Part shown: piece by piece, positions 3 through 34,419 of the stretch
How the letters are laid out: every line of letters starts with the position of its first letter
How positions within the stretch are numbered: the stretch's first letter is position 1
Source: Minisyncoccota bacterium
Lineage (GTDB): Bacteria > Patescibacteriota > Microgenomatia > UBA1400 > PJMF01
Assembly (NCBI GenBank): GCA_018646985.1
Contig: JABGTR010000028.1
Coordinates: 1-53,812, forward strand
Length of the DNA stretch: 53,812 bases
Direction of reading: 5' to 3'
Notes under the pieces: model-generated
The model's database searches: none
Told to the model about the DNA's origin: nothing
What the model saw: only the letters and a program-made list of their open reading frames with translations
Translations under genes and position numbers: made by a program

Positions 3-95
3 TCACAATTACAAGAAAAACTAAGATCTCACCGAGGTCTAAAGTTACCTAAAAGAAGAGTTTTAATTGCTCACTTCCTAAGCTCCAAACAGTGA
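3..95 (+). CDS. Possible 3' end of a gene entering from the left
   Basis: An open frame runs from the window edge to a TGA at 93-95 and would encode a basic 30-residue C-terminus containing RSHRGLKLPKRR. The composition fits a protein tail, but the stretch is too short to identify and could be chance. No start codon is in the window. Confidence 0.2.
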   Translation, partial: SQLQEKLRSHRGLKLPKRRVLIAHFLSSKQ

Positions 96-185
96 GTCTT
101 TTGAATCAAAAAACCAACGCAAATTTTCCCTTAACCCGGATATCTCTACTTGAGAAAACAAAGTCTTAAACTTGAGTAAATAGAT

Positions 186-234
186 GCTGAGTGGAGACTC
201 GGCAGCCTGCCCAACGGCCGAACCTCCACTCAGC
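186..234. repeat. GC-rich interrupted hairpin
   Basis: GCTGAGTGGAG (186-196) is perfectly complementary to CTCCACTCAGC (224-234). Inside, TCGGC (199-203) pairs with GCCGA (217-221), with symmetric AC bulges at 197-198 and 222-223. The 16 paired positions are much more GC-rich than the surroundings. No T-run follows on either strand, so it is not a typical terminator. It may be a structured RNA or a REP-like element. Confidence 0.6.
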
Positions 235-360
235 AACCATTTGATTGATTTCTTTATATTTTACTATAAAAAGATCCAATTTACAGCCATCTTTAAAGCT
301 GTTAGTGTAATCAACATCGAGATACAGATAGTTTTTTAAATGACTATCTTCTCTAACAGA

Positions 361-409
361 AAAAGCATTATTATACGTGGCTCTGCTCAGCGGTAATAAT
401 GCTTTTTTT
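361..409. terminator. Bidirectional intrinsic terminator-like hairpin
   Basis: The 13-nt arms AAAAGCATTATTA (361-373) and TAATAATGCTTTT (394-406) are exact inverted repeats around a 20-nt loop. T-runs follow on the plus strand (403-409), and the matching A-run gives T's on the minus strand. The shape suits the end of transcription from either side, though no confident gene ends here. Confidence 0.6.
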
Positions 410-711
410 ATTTCGAACCCTATTTTTTCGAGTAAAACGAAGAAAAAGTAGCAGGTGCGAAAAATGCTGCGCATATTTTAAAGACTATATCAAGTATAAC
501 TATTTCCTAGCCACTGTCAAGACCTATAGTTATTTACTAAATAGGCCTATATCGCCACTTTCAAACAAATACTCGACTACAGTTAACTACTTGTTAACAT
601 CAATAATCAAGTAATTAATATTGTTAAAAACTTATACTGGATCTATTCGGGTAACGTTCGCCCTCCACTCTATCGAGCATATCTTCTATAAAAATTAGAC
701 AAATAAACCGC

Positions 712-717
712 TATAAT
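712..717 (+). promoter_or_regulatory. -10 box of the VirD4-like gene (leaderless layout)
   Basis: A perfect TATAAT ends 6 nt before the ATG at 724. Transcription starting about 7 nt downstream of the hexamer would begin at the start codon. No Shine-Dalgarno sequence is present. Confidence 0.6.
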
Positions 718-723
718 AATATT

Positions 724-2928
724 ATGCCTGTTCCACACGTTCTTCTAGAAATTAGAACTAGTCAAGATAATCAAAAAACAGCTGAGGCAGCAGCTCAGCT
801 TTTCTCTACTATCCCCAAGTTAAGAGATGAGTGGTGGTGGAAATTAATTCGTAAAAATGAGCACTTGAGTTTTGAAATTGTGGTTAATAATCAGACTGTT
901 TATTTCCAAGCCTATGTTCCTTACCGTCTCAGTGAATACCTGAAAGGTGCTATTAGTGCCAACTATCCAGAAGCTTTAATAGATGAACTTGAGGTTGACC
1001 CACTAGATAGCTTATTTTCAAGAGATTCGGAGTCATCCCCAGTCTCACACCTCAGCTTAGGTAGTCTCAAACTCAAAAATAAAGAATATTTGCCACTTAA
1101 GACCTATCAAGATTTTTCAGATGTTGATCCGCTAGCTCCTCTTCTCTCTACCCTATCTAAAACAAAACTAGATGAAGAAATGGTAATCCAATTTGTTATT
1201 GGTGATGATGGCGACGGCTGGAAAAGGACTGGCTTTTCTCAAATACATGGTAAAAGCACTCAGTTAGAAGAATTAGCTGATTTAGCTAAAAAATCTGGGT
1301 CTCATCCACAAAAAGCTTTGATTGATAAAAAACTAAGTACCAGAGGTTTGAAAACATCGATTAGAGTCGCAGTCAAAACACTGGATAAAAAAAGAAGCAT
1401 TCTACTACTAGAAACGATTGCTAGTAGTCTTCGAGCTATCTCCCAAAGTGAGGGGAACGAACTAATACTTAGAAGAGTATATATATTGAAAAACTATTTT
1501 GCCCAGACAATGCTCAAGCGTCTTTTTAATTTACTCCCTAAGCAGCACCTTTCAATAGAAGAACTAGCTACTCTTTACCATTTACCAAATGAATCTCTTA
1601 AGGGTGTACAAAACGTGGCTTGGGGTAAAAATTTACTCGGGGAGCCACCTGAAAACTTACCAATTGTTACCACCCAGATGGATCCCGAACTAAAGAGTGA
1701 GATCAATCCCTTTGCCCGTACTGACTACAGAAATGAAGCTCATGTCTACGGCATTAAAAGAGATGATCGCCGCCGCCACATGTATGTGATTGGTAAAACT
1801 GGGACTGGTAAGTCTACTCTCTTGGCTAATATGGTCATTAATGATCTTAAAAAGAATGAAGGAATGTGTGTTATTGATCCTCATGGTGATCTGGTTGAAA
1901 CTATTCTTAATTACATTCCCTCACACAGAATCAACGATGTGGTTTATTTTAACCCCGCTGACCCAACTCGCACTGTCCAGATCAATCTCTTTGAAGGTGA
2001 AAATGTTGAGCATCGAGAGTTAATCGCCTCTGGTATTATCTCTGTCTTCAAAAAACTATATGGTTACTCTTGGGGTCCAAGACTTGAGTACATTTTGCGT
2101 AATTCTCTATTAACCCTACTAAAGATACCTGAGTCTAAGTTGTCTGATATCTTGAAACTACTTACTGATGAAAAATTCCGAGCTAAAACTATTGAACATT
2201 TGGATGATGAAATATTAAAAAGCTTCTGGGTGGATGAGTTTAACAAACTCCACGAAAGAGAGCGAACTCAGCAGATTGCCTCTATTCTTAATAAGGTCGG
2301 TCAGTTTGTTTCCTCTCCCCTAGTCAGAAACGTAGTCAACAACTCAACTAGTTCTTTTAGCATTGATGACGTGATGAATGATGGCAAAATTTTATTGGCT
2401 AACTTATCTCAAGGTAAGCTGGGTGAAGATAATGCTACTCTGTTGGGAGCGATGCTAATTACTAAGATTCAGTTGGCTGCTATGGGCCGAGTCAATGTCA
2501 CTGAAGAAGAGCGTCGTGATTTTTATCTTTATGTAGATGAGTTCCAAAATTTCGCCACCGACTCGTTTATTAAGATTCTTTCTGAGGCTCGAAAATACAA
2601 GTTAGATCTGGTTTTAGCCAATCAATATATTGCCCAAATACCAGAGGAAGTCCAGAAGGCTATCTTTGGTAACTGCGGTAATATTGTTAGTTTTGTAATG
2701 GGAGCTGAAGATGCAAGTCTATTTGAAAAAGAGTATGGAAACAAGTTTACTGTTGAAGATTTAGTTTCGTTGGGACGATATCAAATTGTGAATAAGATTA
2801 CAGTTGATGGAATATTATCACAACCTTTCCCTGCTAGAACACTATCTTTAGCCAAGAGTAGCAATAAAAATAAAGACAAAGTCATTCAGGTCAGCCGCGA
2901 GCGATACGCCAAGAAAAAGCAGAAGTAA
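724..2928 (+). CDS. VirD4/TraG-like P-loop ATPase (T4SS coupling type)
   Basis: This 734-aa protein is a conjugation-type ATPase. Walker A GKTGTGKS is at residues 357-364, followed by a VIDPHGDLVE segment typical of VirD4/TraG/DUF87 proteins. A Walker B-like YVDEFQNF has its acidic pair at D605-E606. The N-terminal ~330 residues are a family-specific domain without clear membrane helices. Homologues usually feed substrates to a type IV secretion channel or move DNA at the membrane. It stands alone, more than 20 kb from the VirB4-like gene, and is convergent with radA with only one base between the genes. The family call is firm; the substrate is unknown. The start is supported by the TATAAT 6 nt upstream. 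Confidence 0.85.
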   Translation: MPVPHVLLEIRTSQDNQKTAEAAAQLFSTIPKLRDEWWWKLIRKNEHLSFEIVVNNQTVYFQAYVPYRLSEYLKGAISANYPEALIDELEVDPLDSLFSRDSESSPVSHLSLGSLKLKNKEYLPLKTYQDFSDVDPLAPLLSTLSKTKLDEEMVIQFVIGDDGDGWKRTGFSQIHGKSTQLEELADLAKKSGSHPQKALIDKKLSTRGLKTSIRVAVKTLDKKRSILLLETIASSLRAISQSEGNELILRRVYILKNYFAQTMLKRLFNLLPKQHLSIEELATLYHLPNESLKGVQNVAWGKNLLGEPPENLPIVTTQMDPELKSEINPFARTDYRNEAHVYGIKRDDRRRHMYVIGKTGTGKSTLLANMVINDLKKNEGMCVIDPHGDLVETILNYIPSHRINDVVYFNPADPTRTVQINLFEGENVEHRELIASGIISVFKKLYGYSWGPRLEYILRNSLLTLLKIPESKLSDILKLLTDEKFRAKTIEHLDDEILKSFWVDEFNKLHERERTQQIASILNKVGQFVSSPLVRNVVNNSTSSFSIDDVMNDGKILLANLSQGKLGEDNATLLGAMLITKIQLAAMGRVNVTEEERRDFYLYVDEFQNFATDSFIKILSEARKYKLDLVLANQYIAQIPEEVQKAIFGNCGNIVSFVMGAEDASLFEKEYGNKFTVEDLVSLGRYQIVNKITVDGILSQPFPARTLSLAKSSNKNKDKVIQVSRERYAKKKQK

Positions 2929-21158: not shown

Positions 21159-22268
21159 CTACTCATTAACCCTAAAAGGCATCACCACATATTGATAATT
21201 TTCTTGATTATCAGGCCTCATCATGGCTGGGGTTAAACTCTCATTCATGAGAAATTTTATTTTTTCTGGCTTTAGAGTAGACATAAAGTCCAATAAATAT
21301 TTAGAGTTAAAAGCAATCTCGCCTTCTTCACCATCATTCACCTCAATATTCATTTTTCCCTCATGCTTTCCATAGGAAGAAGAGACTGCGGTAATAAGCA
21401 ACTCATTTTTAGAAAACTTTAAGCGAATAATGTTAGATGATTCTCGAGCGAAAATCTGAGCTCTTTTAAGCTGATTCTCAAACTCAGCTCCATCTAATTC
21501 AGCCTCAAACAAATACTGAGTGGGGATAATCTTGTTAAATGGAGGATATTCTCCTTCTATCAACCTTACAAAAAGTTGAGTTGAACCTATTTCCATCACT
21601 AATTGTTTTAATTCCTCAGATATTTTTAAAGAAACAACTTCTACATCTTGAGTAGAAGTTATCTTAGTAACTTCATTAATCGCCTTTGCCGGAACTAGAA
21701 ATTGGACATTCGAGTCCATTTTTTCGGCAGGCAATTTCAAAGTAGACAACCTAAACCCGTCTGTACCAACAACTAATAATCCATCTTGATCAAATTGGAA
21801 TAATAAAGATGTTAAAACTGGTCTAGTCGGGTCAATTGAAGTACTAAAGCCCACCATTTTTTGAATATTTTCCAAACTAACTGTGCTAAGTGAGTGAGTC
21901 TCACCATTCATAACTGGAAAATCAGGGAAATCAGTAGCATCTAAGCATTGAATGGTAGTTTTATTGTTCTGCGAATTAATAGTTAAAGTATTTTCTTTTA
22001 ATGACAGAGTTAACTTGCCAGGATTAAGTGAATTAATACTGCTGTAAAAAATCTTACCTGGAATAGCTAACTTACCAGTTTCGATTATTTTTCCAGATAT
22101 TGTAGTTTTAATTCCTACATATAAATCTGTTGCTGAGAGAGTGATATTGCTTTTAGAAACGTCTATTAAAATTGAAGAGAGAATAGGTAATTGAGGCTTA
22201 TTAGGAATAATCCGATGAAGCTGAGTTAGAGCAGTGTTTAAATTTTCTTGTAAGATTTCTAGTTTCAT
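21159..22268 (-). CDS. dnaN: DNA polymerase III beta subunit (sliding clamp)
   Basis: The 369-aa length and three-domain beta-clamp pattern fit. Signature segments include [36 protein letters not shown] and the C-terminal [10 protein letters not shown]. The clamp tethers polymerase to DNA. It lies 274 nt after dnaA, with DnaA-box-like repeats between, and has its own TATAAT 6 nt before the ATG. Confidence 0.96.
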
Positions 22269-24126: not shown

Positions 24127-26247
24127 TTATTTATTGTCTTTAAACACTTCAGGGGGAGTGTACTGATCAACCGTATAGCGAACCCGATTTGTTTTTTTAG
24201 GAGCATTATTGGGCTTGGTGATTTTCTGCTCACTTCTATTAACATCTTCAACCTTATCTTGTTTCTGGACATTTTCCCTGGGACTATCAATTGTCTTTTT
24301 CTTACCATCATCTTCTCTTTGATAGTAATCCTTGGGGGCCTCTTTCTTCTTTTCTGGTGGTTTAGGCTTAGGTTTGTTTGTTTTAAGGAGTGATTTTTCC
24401 CTAGGAAATTTAATTTTTTTAACCCCAGTCGAAGTTTTTGCAATTTCTTTCTTGACTATTTCTTCTGGATTGGTGGTGATAATTGCATCTTCATCTTCAC
24501 TAGCAACAACTCGGAGCGCGACATGATTCTGACCAGCAAAAAATATTCCCTCACCCACATCTGCGGCCATTACCAATTGTCTCTCTCCCTCAGAGAGATA
24601 GAAAGTCTCAGTGAGTGTTTGCATGGAGGCAGTGGATTGCTTCATCAAAAACTGGATTGAAGAGTTACTCACAATGGCTTTCCCATATTCATTTTGTAAA
24701 AAGTCTTCTACATCTTGAGTAATTGTAGTGATACCCAAATAGTACTTTCGAGCTCTCTTGGCCATGCTATGAATAAAGCTGGCTGAGTCTTTATGCTTCA
24801 TGAAGTACCAGGCTTCATCAATAATTAAAATTCTCTTTTTAAGTTCTTTTTTGACTCTAGTCCAGATGAAGTCAAGAATAATGTACATCGCAATCGGTCT
24901 CAGTTCTTCCTCCATCTCTTTTACAGAAAAAACAGTAAACTGATTGGTGATGTCTATGTTTGAGGCATGATCGAAAATACCTCTGAATGAACCAGTGATA
25001 AATTTTTCTAGGCGCATCGATAGATCATCAGCCGCATCGTCTTCAAAACCAATTAAGGCTTTATAGAGGTCTTCCATTAATGGCGGTTGGTTAGTCTGCG
25101 TAGCTGGATCAGGGGTAATTCCCTTAGCTTTGTAGGCAGCAACCAAGGCTCTATCTAAAATTGCTTCCTGTCTAGAGGTCATATCTCCCAACATTATTTT
25201 TAGTAATCCATGTAGAGAAATTATTTTTTGACCCAGTTCGTTTTCTCCTTCTCTGTAGACAGCAGAAAGATCAAAGGGGTTTATTTTTGCATCAGATCCG
25301 AAAGTGAAATTAATGTACTCGCCGCCAACTGCATTGGAGAGATCCTCGTACTCATGTTCTGGATCGAGTACGATTACTTCAGTTCCAAACATGACTTGGC
25401 GTAAAATTTCTAGTTTAACAGTATATGACTTACCTGCACCAGATTTGGCGAAAATAACCATGTTGGCATTTTCCATCTTAAAACGATCAAAAATGACTAG
25501 TGATTCATTGTGTTCATTGATTCCATAGACAATTCCGGACTCCATCGTTAACTCAGATGAAGTGAATGGGAAAGTTGTTGCTAGGGAAGTGGTATCCATA
25601 TTCCTAGTGACCCCCAGCTTATCTATTCCCATTGGTAGAGTGGTCTTAAAACCCTCGCCCATTTGCAAGGTTGCTTTTTTAGAAACAATTAGTAATGAAC
25701 CCAGGGTTGACTGGACAGATGAAGTAACTTTATTTAACTCCTTGAGTGAGCTAGCCTTGATAGTTACATAAAGACCAAATTGGAAAAATCTCTCAGCTCC
25801 TTTAGCGAGTTGTTCACGAATAACCCTAGCATCCTCTAGCTTAACCTCAGTATTAATGTTGCTGATTTTACCGGCTCTTAGATCAGATTGAATCTCAGCT
25901 TCCATTTCAGTTATTTTCCTTTTCAGGTTGTCTAAAATTTCTTTAGAATCAACTGGGAAAACAAACATCGAGGTATTGATCTGATGAGGGAAGTTAATCA
26001 ATGGTGATAACCAGTTAGCCGGTACAACTCGAGGATATCCAGCTACAAATAGAGTTCTGGTGTAAGTGGAGTTGATTTTTTGATAAGTAAAATCAACCTC
26101 GATCGCTTCTGGAGCGATGATATCTTGGATAGTAACTAAGCCACGACTAAACTCCTCTATTCTTTCTAGATTTTGTTTGTCTTTATTTGCGACTTGTTCT
26201 TCTTCATCGCCTTTTTTCTTAAATAGTGAGGGCAGCTTGAAGGACAT
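24127..26247 (-). CDS. VirB4-like T4SS ATPase
   Basis: This 706-aa ATPase has an N-terminal VirB4/TraC domain, Walker A AKSGAGKSYTVK (K273) and LDPEHEYEDL. Walker B RILIIDEAWYF has D477-E478, followed by GITTITQDVEDFL. VirB4 powers pilus assembly and substrate passage in type IV secretion. About 120 residues of Lys/Pro-rich tail end the chain. Its ATG abuts the stop of the upstream gene, so it is cotranscribed with that gene and PrgI, the order of Gram-positive conjugation clusters. Confidence 0.9.
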   Translation of the reverse strand: MSFKLPSLFKKKGDEEEQVANKDKQNLERIEEFSRGLVTIQDIIAPEAIEVDFTYQKINSTYTRTLFVAGYPRVVPANWLSPLINFPHQINTSMFVFPVDSKEILDNLKRKITEMEAEIQSDLRAGKISNINTEVKLEDARVIREQLAKGAERFFQFGLYVTIKASSLKELNKVTSSVQSTLGSLLIVSKKATLQMGEGFKTTLPMGIDKLGVTRNMDTTSLATTFPFTSSELTMESGIVYGINEHNESLVIFDRFKMENANMVIFAKSGAGKSYTVKLEILRQVMFGTEVIVLDPEHEYEDLSNAVGGEYINFTFGSDAKINPFDLSAVYREGENELGQKIISLHGLLKIMLGDMTSRQEAILDRALVAAYKAKGITPDPATQTNQPPLMEDLYKALIGFEDDAADDLSMRLEKFITGSFRGIFDHASNIDITNQFTVFSVKEMEEELRPIAMYIILDFIWTRVKKELKKRILIIDEAWYFMKHKDSASFIHSMAKRARKYYLGITTITQDVEDFLQNEYGKAIVSNSSIQFLMKQSTASMQTLTETFYLSEGERQLVMAADVGEGIFFAGQNHVALRVVASEDEDAIITTNPEEIVKKEIAKTSTGVKKIKFPREKSLLKTNKPKPKPPEKKKEAPKDYYQREDDGKKKTIDSPRENVQKQDKVEDVNRSEQKITKPNNAPKKTNRVRYTVDQYTPPEVFKDNK

Positions 26248-27494: not shown

Positions 27495-28592
27495 TTATCT
27501 TAAACCTCTAACTTCTATCGGTTCAACCAAATCATTATTTAGGATAACCTCTTGTGAGTTAAATTGATATCTGGGATGTGTAATTTTAATATTATAGCTG
27601 CCATTTTTAAGTGGGGTACTGATGAAAAATTGACCTAGGGCATTGCTTTTAACTGCTCTCACCACTCTGTTTTGTTCATCTTTTATTGCTACGACTGCCT
27701 CTGGAATCAGCTCATTATTAGCAGTCAAAACCATCCCCACTAATTTATTGGGTACAGTTGGTTTGCTGGGAAATGGTAGTGAAGCATTGAAAACAGCTGC
27801 ATCTTGGTCTGAACTATCTTGATTACTAGTATCTGAGTTAGTGGCATAGGCTCCTTGCTGAAGGTTAGAACTATCTTTGCTCTCTTGATCTAAAAGACTA
27901 TGTACCTCAGCATTGGTGGTCTCAGTAACCGGAACACCTATTTTTTGGGCAACTTGATTGGTTTTTAAGATTGTTTTTGATTCTGGTTCAGTATTCTGGT
28001 CGTAAACCAACACTTCTTTTTCAAGAGATGTCTTTTCTAGACTTCTAGTTCTTACTTTTAAATTTGGTTTTTCTATTTGTTTGACCACTTCCACTTCATC
28101 GGGAACTACTTCATCAAAAGCTTGCATGATCTCTTTTATCCTGCTCTGTCTGTTTCGATCATAGCTATCTGGATAGTTGGAGATGGACTTTGTTGAAGCC
28201 AAATACTCTTTAATCCTTTTTCTTCTAATTGGGGTTAAATCTACGTCGTCTTTTTTTTCCATAACTCCCTGACCAACCTCAAAAAGAAATAAATCTGGAA
28301 TCTTAGAGGATTTCTCCCAGAAAAATTTTGTTGGTCGGTAGAGAGTTTTGAAAAAAGTGGTAATCCAGTGATTAAGTGGTCTTTCCTCAATTGGTAGAAA
28401 TGCTGCTGCTGCACCCAGTAACCCAGCAATGAAAATTAATGGCCACTTGATAGCCGGAGGTAGATTGGTCGCATAGATAATTAATCCCAGAATTGCTCCT
28501 AAAGCTAGCTCTGTAAATTGCTTGAGCGTCATGCTACCAACAATATGAAAACGATAGCCAACAATATCCTGTGGAATAGGATGTTCTCTCAT
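27495..28592 (-). CDS. PrgI-family membrane protein with a C-terminal carboxypeptidase-regulatory-like domain
   Basis: Residues ~1-110 match PrgI: a conserved start (HPIPQDIVGYRFHIVGSM) and two helices at ~28-45 and ~50-66, then ERPLNHWITTFFKTLYRP. A 160-residue charged linker follows. Residues ~285-363 form a carboxypeptidase-regulatory/Ig-like beta domain (GQFFISTPLKNGSYNIKI). PrgI pairs with VirB4 in Gram-positive T4SS. The extra domain is usually found at cell surfaces, which is odd for a linker predicted on the cytoplasmic side. Confidence 0.8.
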   Translation of the reverse strand: MREHPIPQDIVGYRFHIVGSMTLKQFTELALGAILGLIIYATNLPPAIKWPLIFIAGLLGAAAAFLPIEERPLNHWITTFFKTLYRPTKFFWEKSSKIPDLFLFEVGQGVMEKKDDVDLTPIRRKRIKEYLASTKSISNYPDSYDRNRQSRIKEIMQAFDEVVPDEVEVVKQIEKPNLKVRTRSLEKTSLEKEVLVYDQNTEPESKTILKTNQVAQKIGVPVTETTNAEVHSLLDQESKDSSNLQQGAYATNSDTSNQDSSDQDAAVFNASLPFPSKPTVPNKLVGMVLTANNELIPEAVVAIKDEQNRVVRAVKSNALGQFFISTPLKNGSYNIKITHPRYQFNSQEVILNNDLVEPIEVRGLR

Positions 28593-29628: not shown

Positions 29629-32600
29629 TTAGTTTGGGCAAATTTCTGTAATTTCATGAATTTCCATTGGTCCTGGTACGTAATCGTTGAAATTTAATGA
29701 GCTAGGCCTTAATTCATAGTGTAGATGAATCCCGACAGTAGGGCCATAGTTTAGTAAGCCGCTATTGCCCATAGTGCCTATTAAAGTTCCGGCAGATATA
29801 TCTTGACATTCTCCGGGGTTTAGCTCGCTGGAAAATGCATCCATATGAGCAAATCCAACAGTAAAAGTACCGGCGTTTAAAACAACATGGTTGCCATAGC
29901 AGTACTGTGTCCCAAAAGCACTGATGGCACTTGGGGCACATAACCAACCGCTATCTTGGGGGTAGGCACAGGCCTCACCATCAAAGGGAGTAAAAATGGG
30001 TGTGCCTCGATCACTATGAATATCTATTGCCTGAATAACACTATGCGAATTGCCGAATTTATTTGGAACACCATGTGGCCCCTGTGTAAACTCACCAGTG
30101 GTTGGCCAGCATCCATCTCCGATGGGGTAGTCACCAATACCAACACTATAGCTAGTTGATGCGGTATCACTACCAGACTCACTACTGTTTTGGTAATCAA
30201 AGTCGATTGAGAAACTATTTGTAATGCGACTATCCATATATTCTGACCCGTATTCCTGGGTATATTCAATAGTGATAGATTCTCCATCAGCTATTGTAGT
30301 TCCATTTAACTCACTAATATCCTTTTCCCTTTTTTCAGAATCTTTCCCTTCTTCAGAAAACGATATTGCAGTTACATCCTTTGCACTATTAATAGTAATT
30401 GAGTATCCTTTGTCGGCAGAGATAGTTATTTCATAAGTTATTTCATCTGGGGGAGTCTCAATTTCTCTACCTACATCTGCTGTTTTAGCCAGAGTCACGT
30501 ATTTAGATTGCTCTCCGGTTTGGTTCGTTGTAATTACAGTTGGGTGGAGTTGTGTCCCTCCAGCCACTGCAACAGCCAGCATAGTTCCGCCGGCAGTAGC
30601 TGCGCCAGCAATTTTAAAAGTCGTTGGTGCTGTGGCGAGTGTTTTACCTCCAATCCCTCCCAGTCCAGATTGAGAAATTGGTCCCAGCCCAGCACCGCCA
30701 CCAGATATCCCGCGCTCTTTAAACCAATCACCGATTGTTTTAGCACCACCACCTCCTAGCCAGCCACCCAATCCTGCTCCAACCACTGCTCCACCTGGTC
30801 CTCCAAGGGCAAAGCCAATTAATCCACCTCCGACTGCTCCGAGCAGAGCCCTGGCTCCACCCTTTAATAGTGCAGCTACAGCCCCAGCGCCGGCACCAAG
30901 AGTTACTAGAAGTAGATTCCCAGTTTTTTCTTCTATCTCTTCGGCTAGATCTTTCAAGAAAGGGAGTTGTTCTAGAGCAGCTAAAATTGGCGCTAATTCT
31001 GGAGCGATTACTCCCAGAGCTGCTTTACCAAGTTTTTGCTTGCCTGATGAGAATAGTTTCTTAGCGGCACTGGCTCTATCAGTTTGACCAGCTGGGCCAG
31101 TTAAGTTGGCTTGCGCAGCTGCATCAGAAAAAGTAGTAAATCCTGGAGGGGGAGCGCTGTAGTCAATCTCAACAGCACTCACTCCATACTGGATGTAGAT
31201 GTCAAACAACTCAGTTTCTGTTTTCCCAGCTACACTAGCTAGCCATAAATCCTTGTAGAGCTGCTTGATGGTAGCTTTACGATGTTCACTAATTGTCTGT
31301 GATCTGTCAATTTGATCTGGAGTGAGATTGAGAGCTGCCACTCCATCTTCTTCATACTCACTAACGAAAGTCCTCACCCCACCTAGTGCCTGTGGGATCT
31401 TTTTCTTTTCGTCATCTTCGTCAAACCAAGGAGCAATGTTTGCTCCAGCTGCATACCTGCGGATGGAAATTAGTCCTCTGAGCAGTTTCTTAAACTCTGC
31501 AGTATTTATCCCACTATCTTGGAGCCCAAAATGTTCTAATAAATCAGTATCAGTTAACCCAGCAAAATACTTAGCGGGATCTTGAGAGAGGACAATAATT
31601 GAGTCAATGGTGGCATAGATACGAGCTTCACTAACTAAGCTTCCTTGGGAAATTTCCCGCAATCTTTTTTGATAGTGCTCCTTTGATAATCTGAAAACTT
31701 CTTCGTTAAGCTGAAGTTTGTTGAAGATCTCACCCCTGCGCCTGTTAATCTCTGCTTTTAATTCTTTATTTGAGAGACCTGCTGGAAATTCTTTGAGAAT
31801 TAAAATATTAATTGCGTTTCTAATTTCTTGACTTACCTCTTCTTTTCCAAACTGTGAGAATAATAAGGTGGTGGCTAAATTAGCCAGCTGTTTTTCTCGA
31901 CCAATATCAAGGCCTTTAGTTATTTCAGCTTCTACATCTTCAGTTTTTCCATCTACGGTGGGAACGACAGTTTCGACATCTGGAGTCTCAGTCTCAACTG
32001 GTGCGGACTCTTTTTTTGACTCTTCTACTAAAGGAATATCCTGTATTAATCGTAAAAATACATCCCGATGTTTATTAAAAAACCACTCTGCTAAAAATAT
32101 GTCTAGTTGCTTGGCCTGATCATCACTAATTCGGTAGTTGTCACCTTCTGCTACTTCTGGAGTAAGATGGTCAATGATCCAGTTTTCAGCTGCAGTTTCT
32201 GTTTCTCCCTCATTTATTAAATCTATAATTTTTCCTGAAAGTTCTTTTATCAACCAATCTTGCTGTTCTTGAACATAGCTATCTTTTTCAATTGAAAAAT
32301 ATTCAAAAAATATGCCACTAGACCTTACTTTCAGGTTTCTGATCGCATCTTTAATTATTTTTTCTTGGTTTGTAAACTCAACCTCAGTTGGAGTTGGTTC
32401 TTGGGCCTCACCACCACCATCATCACCAGGATCCTCGCTAACTCCAGCCGCTGCTGTCTCTGGTTCTTTTTCCAGTTCATCTAGGAGATCTGTTATGTCC
32501 TTAAGGAAAGTTCTAGCCTTATTAGTATCATCTGAAATAACAATTGAATTATTGACTTCATTTGTATTAAAAACGTATTCTTTTGTTCTGTAATCAAATT

Positions 32601-33450
32601 TCTCTCTAGTATCCGAGGTGACTCTATCCCATGGGGATTCAATCTTATCTTTTTTATATTGTTCAGCTATTTGTTCATAATAGGTATTGATGATTGTTCT
32701 GGCATCGCTAACGCTAAACTTATGGTTAGGAGTGATGATGACTTTTTCATTAAGAGGACTGTCTCCTAAGGATTTTGCAGCTTCGTAGCCAAATTTTTCC
32801 CAGATGCTTCGATATTGACCATGTTTGGTGGCTGTTCTAAATACGTTCTCAATTTCGGCAATAATTGGCTGTATATTATCTAGATCTAACTGAGCTTCAT
32901 CAGCAATTTCCTTATGAATTCCTTCTATGATCTCCAGAGTTACTTCGGCAGCTTTTTTTAAGTCTGTCTGGGCAACTATTTGGAGCGACTTAATATCTGC
33001 AGCTGAACTAATCTCAGCAATAATGCTATCTATCTCATATCCCCAAGAGAATGTTTTGTTCTTTTTTGTTCCATATTCTTCAATGACAAAACCTTTGATT
33101 GATTTTAGAATTTGAGCAATGTCATCAGGGAAAAATTGTCCCAAAACAATCGGCCCCGCATTACCCAATATTCCACCACTAGCCTCTTCACCTTTAAAGT
33201 GAGTGAGAGTCAGTGGAAAAGAAGCTCCTCGAGCATTGATTTCTTGGCTATCACCATCTAGAAGTAAGAGGCTATAAGTGTTGGGGAACTCAACTTTTTT
33301 ATTACTTCTAAAAGCATCAACTATTGATTGAGTTAATCCAAATAGATGGCCCAGAGTTAGGTCTGGTTCGTTTCTTCTCTCTTCATGAGAGATGCTAATA
33401 ACTAGTCTCTTAGCTCTAGCTGCTCGTGAATTAATAGTGTCGTCCGCCAT
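29629..33450 (-). CDS. 1273-aa T4SS-linked protein with a degenerate M23 domain
   Basis: The first ~900 residues are mostly helical and unrecognised. A Gly/Ala-rich membrane segment (GGGLIGFALGGPGGAVVGAG) follows, then an Ig-like stretch, and a C-terminal M23 peptidase domain starts near residue 1113. The domain keeps D1143 (IDIHSDRG), H1202 (GFAHMD) and the HxH at H1242/H1244 (GIHLHYEL). The first zinc histidine of HxGxD is replaced (VIQAID), unless H1136 serves instead. M23 proteins are wall-cutting partners of T4SS. A TATAAT lies 10 nt before the ATG. Confidence 0.75.
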   Translation of the reverse strand: MADDTINSRAARAKRLVISISHEERRNEPDLTLGHLFGLTQSIVDAFRSNKKVEFPNTYSLLLLDGDSQEINARGASFPLTLTHFKGEEASGGILGNAGPIVLGQFFPDDIAQILKSIKGFVIEEYGTKKNKTFSWGYEIDSIIAEISSAADIKSLQIVAQTDLKKAAEVTLEIIEGIHKEIADEAQLDLDNIQPIIAEIENVFRTATKHGQYRSIWEKFGYEAAKSLGDSPLNEKVIITPNHKFSVSDARTIINTYYEQIAEQYKKDKIESPWDRVTSDTREKFDYRTKEYVFNTNEVNNSIVISDDTNKARTFLKDITDLLDELEKEPETAAAGVSEDPGDDGGGEAQEPTPTEVEFTNQEKIIKDAIRNLKVRSSGIFFEYFSIEKDSYVQEQQDWLIKELSGKIIDLINEGETETAAENWIIDHLTPEVAEGDNYRISDDQAKQLDIFLAEWFFNKHRDVFLRLIQDIPLVEESKKESAPVETETPDVETVVPTVDGKTEDVEAEITKGLDIGREKQLANLATTLLFSQFGKEEVSQEIRNAINILILKEFPAGLSNKELKAEINRRRGEIFNKLQLNEEVFRLSKEHYQKRLREISQGSLVSEARIYATIDSIIVLSQDPAKYFAGLTDTDLLEHFGLQDSGINTAEFKKLLRGLISIRRYAAGANIAPWFDEDDEKKKIPQALGGVRTFVSEYEEDGVAALNLTPDQIDRSQTISEHRKATIKQLYKDLWLASVAGKTETELFDIYIQYGVSAVEIDYSAPPPGFTTFSDAAAQANLTGPAGQTDRASAAKKLFSSGKQKLGKAALGVIAPELAPILAALEQLPFLKDLAEEIEEKTGNLLLVTLGAGAGAVAALLKGGARALLGAVGGGLIGFALGGPGGAVVGAGLGGWLGGGGAKTIGDWFKERGISGGGAGLGPISQSGLGGIGGKTLATAPTTFKIAGAATAGGTMLAVAVAGGTQLHPTVITTNQTGEQSKYVTLAKTADVGREIETPPDEITYEITISADKGYSITINSAKDVTAISFSEEGKDSEKREKDISELNGTTIADGESITIEYTQEYGSEYMDSRITNSFSIDFDYQNSSESGSDTASTSYSVGIGDYPIGDGCWPTTGEFTQGPHGVPNKFGNSHSVIQAIDIHSDRGTPIFTPFDGEACAYPQDSGWLCAPSAISAFGTQYCYGNHVVLNAGTFTVGFAHMDAFSSELNPGECQDISAGTLIGTMGNSGLLNYGPTVGIHLHYELRPSSLNFNDYVPGPMEIHEITEICPN

Positions 33451-33482: not shown

Positions 33483-34142
33483 TTAAGCCATGACTAGCTG
33501 TGTCTTGTCGAACTGTTTAACGCCACTGAAACTAGCTATTAAATTACTTACCATGGCTCTCATGGATTCAATTGAGCTTTTAATCTGTATTTTTTGAACA
33601 GAGATAATTCTTAAGCGCTCTTCTTTTTGATCAATAGCTTCATCCTTTTGAGCAGCTAGCTCATCCTCATTCAGCAAAGCTGTATTAGTCTCTTGGAGAA
33701 GAGTTGTGCCTGCCAAGTGTTGCTTTTCTTCTCTATGAAGTTCTTCTAGCTCTTCCTCTTTTTCGATTGTTAGTTGATGGATTAACAGGGCCTTAACTTG
33801 TTCAATGGTTTGTTCAAGTTGAGCTTGAGCTTGTTCGGTAGCTTCTTTGGCATTTGTTAGATATTCACTCAGCATCACCCAAACTTTTTCTGCACCCGGT
33901 AAATAGGGCAGGCCAAATCTACGGAGGAGAGTCCTAGCAAAGGCTTGTTCTTCAGCTGCTTCTTCAATAAATAAAGTTTCTCGCTGGATAGACTCAAACA
34001 AGTCTTCAGCTGTATCAATTTTTGGGGTAACAGCTTCATTTTGGATTAAGTCTAAAACGAAAGTGAGTTCAGTGGGCATCTCTGCTGTTTCTTGATCGTA
34101 CATAGTCATGTACATAGTTCTAGCTTCTTGAGGGACTGCCAT
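33483..34142 (-). CDS. 219-aa helical protein below the cobalamin riboswitch, unknown
   Basis: An all-helical protein with no signal or membrane segment. Residues ~100-190 are a Glu/Gln-rich coiled coil. No family is recognised. It is the first gene after the riboswitch and the terminator at 34184-34213, so its expression should depend on cobalamin binding. The 1273-aa protein gene follows, with its own TATAAT. Its ATG is preceded by AAAGG. Confidence 0.6.
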   Translation of the reverse strand: MAVPQEARTMYMTMYDQETAEMPTELTFVLDLIQNEAVTPKIDTAEDLFESIQRETLFIEEAAEEQAFARTLLRRFGLPYLPGAEKVWVMLSEYLTNAKEATEQAQAQLEQTIEQVKALLIHQLTIEKEEELEELHREEKQHLAGTTLLQETNTALLNEDELAAQKDEAIDQKEERLRIISVQKIQIKSSIESMRAMVSNLIASFSGVKQFDKTQLVMA

Positions 34143-34183: not shown

Positions 34184-34213
34184 AAAATAAAAACTCCTCG
34201 TTATATAGAGGAG
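34184..34213 (-). terminator. Intrinsic terminator of the cobalamin riboswitch
   Basis: On the minus strand, CTCCTC (plus 34208-34213) and GAGGAG (plus 34194-34199) flank TATATAAC and are followed by TTTTTATTTT. A competing antiterminator, GAGCATC (plus 34244-34250) with GATGCTC (plus 34211-34217), uses the same three bases, giving two exclusive folds. Confidence 0.75.
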
Positions 34214-34375
34214 CATCTGGGTCTAAAAGATTAGATCTAATCCGATGCTCGTCGATTCCCTAGTTTTAATTAGGGAGTATTCTTAAGCTCGGACTGATCT
34301 ATTTAGAATAGAAACACCGTTGCGGCACAGCGATGGATTTACACCATCTTCCAAAGAACACATTTTTTAATCTGA
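34214..34375 (-). promoter_or_regulatory. Cobalamin riboswitch
   Basis: The minus strand reads GGAAGATGGTGTAAATCC at the start of the core and then GCTGTGCCGCAACGGT. Position by position this matches the conserved cobalamin core (for example btuB). The later AGTCCGA fits AGYCMGR. Flanking GTGTTCTT and AAGAATAC (plus 34354-34361 and 34277-34284) pair over 8 bp with one G-U and close the aptamer. A CCCTA/TAGGG hairpin follows (34258-34275). The terminator gives the expression platform. It lies between two minus-strand genes. Confidence 0.82.
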
Positions 34376-34419
34376 AATAAGTTGTAGCATGAAAAAAAGA
34401 GAGGAGTCAAATGAGGTTG

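Follow-up and report, generated by a model that had tools for sequence, protein, structure and literature searches.

The window analysed here, a stretch of 53,812 nucleotides from a Minisyncoccota bacterium, carries on its minus strand a predicted promoter, an RNA element of the cobalamin riboswitch class, the gene Q219 and a run of T4SS genes that leads to dnaA, with dnaN behind it (Table 1). The initial annotation of this DNA, made from the letters alone, had described a gene of no assigned function with a coiled coil next after the switch, followed in the same direction by an M23 protein, PrgI and VirB4, and this gene order was confirmed. The T4SS is of the monoderm (MPF-FATA) type, with a VirB4 ATPase and a cell-wall hydrolase (PF01551 in M23L) both present. 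Gaps between the genes from Q219 to VirB4 measure 0-58 bp, and terminator prediction on the minus strand of the window returned none between Q219 and M23L and none between VirB4 and dnaA. Judging from the gaps, the genes from Q219 to VirB4 are likely co-transcribed, and it is possible from the sequence that dnaA lies on the same transcript.

Table 1 Features of the switch and the genes behind it, in window coordinates.
Feature	Position	Strand	Remarks
Predicted promoter	34381..34410	-	TTGACT 34410-34405; extended -10 TG-C-TACAAC 34389-34381
Aptamer core	34277..34361	-	RF01482 match and covariation
P3 closing stem	34361-34354/34284-34277	-	part of aptamer core
P5 and P6	34348-34344/34336-34332 (P5); 34330-34327/34320-34317 (P6)	-	junction AGUCCG
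P13 hairpin	34242..34255	-	conserved loop CGAGCA (L13), covarying stem
Antiterminator	34211..34250	-	GAGCAUC 34250-34244 pairs with GAUGCUC 34217-34211; consumes L13 and 3' side of P13
Intrinsic terminator	34193..34214	-	stem GCUCCUC/GAGGAGU, then U-run UUUUAUUUU
Q219	33483..34142	-	219 aa, all-helical, long coiled coil; first gene after switch
M23L	29629..33450	-	1273 aa, C-terminal M23 peptidase (PF01551, 3.8e-9), T4SS-associated; 32-bp gap to Q219
P323	28651..29622	-	T4SS-operon protein; position conserved in L059, L069, L075, L247, L248, L251
PrgI-like	27495..28592	-	PF12666 2.7e-4, 21.9 bits, under cut-off of 27; conserved position
P404	26248..27462	-	T4SS protein; weak similarity to TrsD and N-terminal part of VirB4_plasma
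VirB4 ATPase	24127..26247	-	CD1110 family, monoderm conjugation type; NF045971 389.3 bits, cut-off 325
dnaA	22543..24015	-	111 bp behind VirB4, co-directional; possible read-through target
dnaN	21159-22268		after dnaA

Identity and expression platform of the switch

We used covariance models to evaluate the RNA element. Scanning the whole window with cmscan at the gathering threshold gave no RNA match. With an E-value threshold, RF01482 (AdoCbl riboswitch) matches 34379-34232 on the minus strand end to end (model positions 1-149 of 149) at 42.7 bits, which lies below the gathering score of 50, with E=9.7e-7 for a 361-base stretch and 1.5e-4 when the whole window is searched. RF00174, the model that the initial annotation had named for an Infernal check, has no match in this genome, although it matches 8 of 14 control genomes. 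The conserved core motifs GGUGUAAAUCC, GCUGUGCCGCAACGGU and AGUCCGA are present where they had been placed, and the 8-bp closing stem was found as described.

Related genomes carry the same element. RF01482 matches 48 of 109 relatives, 11 of them above the gathering score, each with a single copy except G015, which has two; orthologous switches ahead of a homologous gene in five of these genomes (G035, G005, G040, G038, G037) reach 53-58 bits. Our own covariance model, built from 24 family sequences, matches 56 relatives including G019, whose switch had first been located solely through the sequence upstream of its Q219 homologue. Loci found through SPX, the other protein encoded behind such switches, carry the switch core as well in G064, G073, G060 and G067, where the Rfam search missed it. 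An apparent hairpin insert near L5 is seen at L071 (G065), L236 (G073), L238 (G060) and L239 (G067), loci with a poor Rfam match or none.

Several lines of evidence argue against a chance resemblance to a cobalamin riboswitch. Across 19 pairs in the 24 family sequences, 96.1% of cells are paired, compared with 30-46% in controls with slid partners, and the covariation score is 0.61 as opposed to 0.03-0.15 when partners are slid. Two-sided changes occupy 107 cells as against 29.9 +/- 5.7 in shuffles and occur in 13 of the 19 pairs; P3, P5 and P13 covary strongly, bearing out the expectation of covariation in relatives, while P6 is invariant and hence uninformative. The core and the P13 loop CGAGCA are nearly invariant. 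With chance ruled out by covariation, shuffles and slides, the element, as judged from its sequence and that of its relatives, is a real and conserved cobalamin-class riboswitch. It shares with RF01482 (clan CL00101) the core motifs, the P3/P5/P6/P13 plan and a terminator-type expression platform, but differs in that the window copy scores below the gathering threshold, in the hairpin inserts around L5 of some relatives, and in its targets: two orphan protein families, joined in some lineages by T4SS genes.

From the predicted promoter, transcription is expected to start near 34374. The promoter pattern TTGN3-N13-17-TGNTA precedes 14 of 17 Q219-type switches, where 0.38 are expected in shuffles. 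Downstream of the aptamer, the terminator pairs 34213-34208 with 34199-34194, plus a G-U pair at 34214/34193, and it shares three Watson-Crick bases (34213-34211) with the antiterminator; the two are thus mutually exclusive, as had been proposed. Computed energies are close (-17.1 kcal/mol for P13 with the terminator, -15.5 kcal/mol for the antiterminator), and the antiterminator is the best computed fold before the 3' arm of the terminator is made. The chain of GAGCAUC, GAUGCUC and terminator is found in 16 family loci, mostly of the Q219 type; G010 and G017 have it at SPX-type loci. It is missing from the remaining SPX loci, which may act at translation. By analogy with the known AdoCbl fold, L13 is predicted to kiss L5. 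Because the antiterminator and terminator, which can be read from the sequence together with the rest of the structure, are alternative pairings, we infer that ligand binding should favour termination, and the recurrence of the P13/antiterminator/terminator chain predicts an OFF switch.

First genes and T4SS genes behind the switch

The gene directly behind the switch belongs to one of two families. Homologues of Q219 lie directly behind a switch in 15 of 15 cases among 71 genomes searched, one of them found only via the protein. SPX, a 350-700-aa protein with a Cys-rich C-terminal motif in many members, has a switch ahead of its gene in 20 of 22 SPX-bearing genomes, with some loci missed by Rfam; in G048 and G058 SPX is present and no switch lies ahead of the gene in the sequence read. 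In G048 the SPX homologue (L250, G048:C4, 1304-3325) stands immediately before dnaA, with no T4SS or switch core there and the T4SS on another contig. No genome has Q219 and SPX together, and the idea that Q219 is a divergent SPX was dropped since profile comparison shows no relation. An AlphaFold model of Q219 (pLDDT 71) gave weak helical-bundle matches only, the best with E 0.05, so that neither fold nor function is recognisable in it, and the structure model of SPX (pLDDT 66) had no structural match.

Q219 or SPX was detected in 24 of 27 switch-bearing and 0 of 15 switch-less family genomes (n=42; Fisher p=8e-9), a count of related and not independent genomes in which a lost contig removes switch and first gene together. 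The three switch genomes lacking both have a diverged protein in the same place (G002), another protein of similar size (G013) and a contig end (G022). On this genomic record, what stays constant next to the switch is the first gene behind it, drawn from two unrelated families.

Linkage to the T4SS is less regular. VirB4 of the monoderm type is found in 49 of 52 relatives and the T4SS operon in nearly all of them, often far from the switch. The operon lies in line behind the switch in 8 family genomes and in 2 genomes of another family, f13. The order switch, first gene, M23L, PrgI, P404 and VirB4 is seen in the window's own genome (G000), G003, G010, G016, G023 and G034 and, in f13, in G053 and G072; the contigs of G001 and G002 stop inside M23L, behind the switch and first gene. 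In these in-line genomes dnaA follows the T4SS run wherever the contig reaches. The switch-Q219 unit is divergent from an adjoining T4SS operon in G008 and G026, and the switch lies away from the T4SS in G005, G006, G011, G012, G013, G015, G017, G019, G021 and others, which leaves switch and operon unlinked or divergent in at least ten relatives. Genomes with the in-line order are dispersed over a tree of VirB4, and this pattern suggests that the order is old and was repeatedly lost. The initial proposal that the switch ties its first gene, and perhaps a secretion machine, to cobalamin is partly supported: the first gene is constant, and the T4SS is often far away, yet its link to the switch recurs in line across several lineages of this family and in a second family.

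T4SS clusters of the monoderm conjugation type (VirB4/PrgI) have been described beside dnaA/dnaN in Patescibacteria including Microgenomatia, and relaxases are absent from most of the patescibacterial clusters (PMC12102498). The window's run is alike in its VirB4/PrgI genes, its monoderm type and its place beside dnaA/dnaN, but it is headed by a B12-class switch whereas PMC12102498 mentions no riboswitch. Two minor points concern the annotation of T4SS proteins. The entry CP011212.1 (L155), titled 'candidate division TM6', encodes a VirB4 79% identical to that of the window's family, and its title is probably a mislabel. A P404 label given by blast to two G043 proteins traced to low-complexity TPTP stretches and was discarded.

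B12 genes and the proposed regulation

The initial annotation had seen no known B12-linked gene, which is true within the window and does not hold for the genome. An RTPR-like RNR of 727 aa lies behind nrdR (C2) and matches TIGR02505 over nearly the whole model with 249 bits (cut-off 340); its class II insertion domain (PF21995) is above cut-off, and for classes I and II it is the only RNR-like match in the genome. A PduO-type adenosyltransferase is encoded on C5. A DUF4430 gene adjoins one for a DUF6580 membrane protein (L246:4918-5794, G000:C34), as also in G005 (L253:5037-5943); we take DUF4430 to resemble the transcobalamin C-terminal domain, and our guess is that the two form a candidate cobalamin uptake pair. 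Profile searches of the genome found the NrdJ_Z, BtuR-type and B12-binding families absent or weak, and the NrdJ operon that the switch heads in other families is absent. A reading of these absences as no B12 use in the organism was rejected once the weak RNR match proved RTPR-like and PduO was found. The NrdJ_Z model does match in the control genomes of E. coli and B. subtilis, which makes an additional RNR of class I unlikely here; by its sequence the genome's RNR appears to be AdoCbl-dependent.

Outside this family, SPX-NrdR-NrdJ operons stand behind the same switch, and the last gene of some of them encodes a BtuR-type adenosyltransferase. The switch also heads DUF4430 genes in relatives, and in G015 the second copy precedes the gene for a class I RNR small subunit. 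Conversely, G004, G007, G009 and G025 are without RTPR, PduO, switch and Q219/SPX; the first three form one clade on the tree, which points mainly to one loss event, and they keep VirB4 despite the loss. RTPR with no detected switch was seen in eleven family genomes, mostly drafts of 30-120 contigs. Cobalamin riboswitches stand ahead of class I nrdAB in other bacteria. The switches described here are similar in tying B12 to deoxynucleotide synthesis, with G015 as an example, but the RTPR-like RNR of this family lies elsewhere, with no switch detected there. The best reading of these associations is that the switch belongs to a B12/RNR-linked regulon of Microgenomates.

We propose that positions 34410-34193 of the minus strand act as a transcriptional OFF switch with its own promoter. 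Ligand binding would hold P13 and its loop against L5, leaving the GAUGCUC strand free and allowing the terminator to form, a step modelled on the known AdoCbl fold. Without ligand, GAGCAUC would pair with GAUGCUC and polymerase would read on into Q219, which (as SPX in relatives) would be the constant target within the B12/ribonucleotide-reductase regulon. When AdoCbl is scarce, M23L, P323, PrgI, P404 and VirB4 would thus probably be expressed on the Q219 transcript, and read-through onward into dnaA would be possible. We hold this overall reading, an AdoCbl OFF switch of the B12/RNR regulon with Q219/SPX as constant target and T4SS genes probably co-transcribed here, with good confidence. 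That the switch drives Q219 is well supported by the comparison of genomes; that it drives the T4SS in this lineage is plausible, the chances being about even.

The main competitor concerns that last step. The switch might regulate its first gene only, with the T4SS a bystander under its own promoters in an inherited gene order at the origin, and we give this a chance only a little short of even. It would readily account for loci at which Q219/SPX and the switch occur with no T4SS nearby (L032-L034, L038, L043, L052, L060), for the divergent orientation in G008 and G026, and for a T4SS that persists in the clade from which switch and B12 genes are lost. It sits less well with the tiny gaps, with the lack of a predicted minus-strand terminator between Q219 and M23L, and with an in-line order kept in scattered family lineages and in f13 whether the first gene is Q219 or SPX.

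Two other explanations touch the RNA itself. The ligand is most likely AdoCbl, as inferred from RF01482 being the best family and from an RNR and adenosyltransferase of AdoCbl type in the genome; since the Rfam assignment within the clan rests on score, a different corrinoid (MeCbl, AqCbl or another cobamide) has some chance of being the ligand, though we consider it unlikely. It is very improbable that the element is what remains of an NrdJ-operon riboswitch, degenerate and no longer able to bind a ligand. The subthreshold score and the missing NrdJ operon would fit such a remnant, yet the core is invariant in 24 of 24 family sequences, every variable helix has compensatory changes, promoter and terminator are conserved, and B12 genes are still in the genome.

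The AdoCbl OFF switch, if it extends to the T4SS, would bear on a question from S. epibionticum, in which growth requires the T4SS, a proposed means of nucleotide acquisition with no known signal (PMC11665869, PMC12102498). A B12-class switch ahead of a T4SS cluster, in an organism whose RNR appears AdoCbl-dependent, offers a specific input signal open to testing in vitro. An AdoCbl shortage might stall B12-dependent RNR and dNTP supply and turn on the T4SS, perhaps with dnaA, for scavenging nucleic acids, nucleotides or cobalamin; we regard this as rather doubtful, and that the T4SS under the switch serves feeding on a host or neighbour is speculation. If true, it would be a vitamin-sensing switch for host feeding. 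The kind of RNA is known and its targets are new: we found no earlier account of cobalamin riboswitches in Patescibacteria, the Candidate Phyla Radiation or Microgenomates in the open-licence literature, and two orphan families, Q219 and SPX, are now tagged as B12/RNR-linked.

Finally, relatives show two arrangements of B12-related genes that we record here. Tandem NrdJ genes, in two to four copies behind nrdR, occur at G045:C29, G053:C3, G061:C5 and G076:C10 (L037, L042), and in several of these frames the profile match is split into halves, 2-282 and 280-606, that lie roughly 1 kb from each other within a single open frame, an intein-like pattern. At L066 (G043), positions 83..2047 behind the switch encode a DUF4430 protein and, after it, a repeat-rich protein, possibly an alpha/alpha barrel; judged by sequence, this pair under a B12 switch resembles a transcobalamin-like B12 binder split in two.
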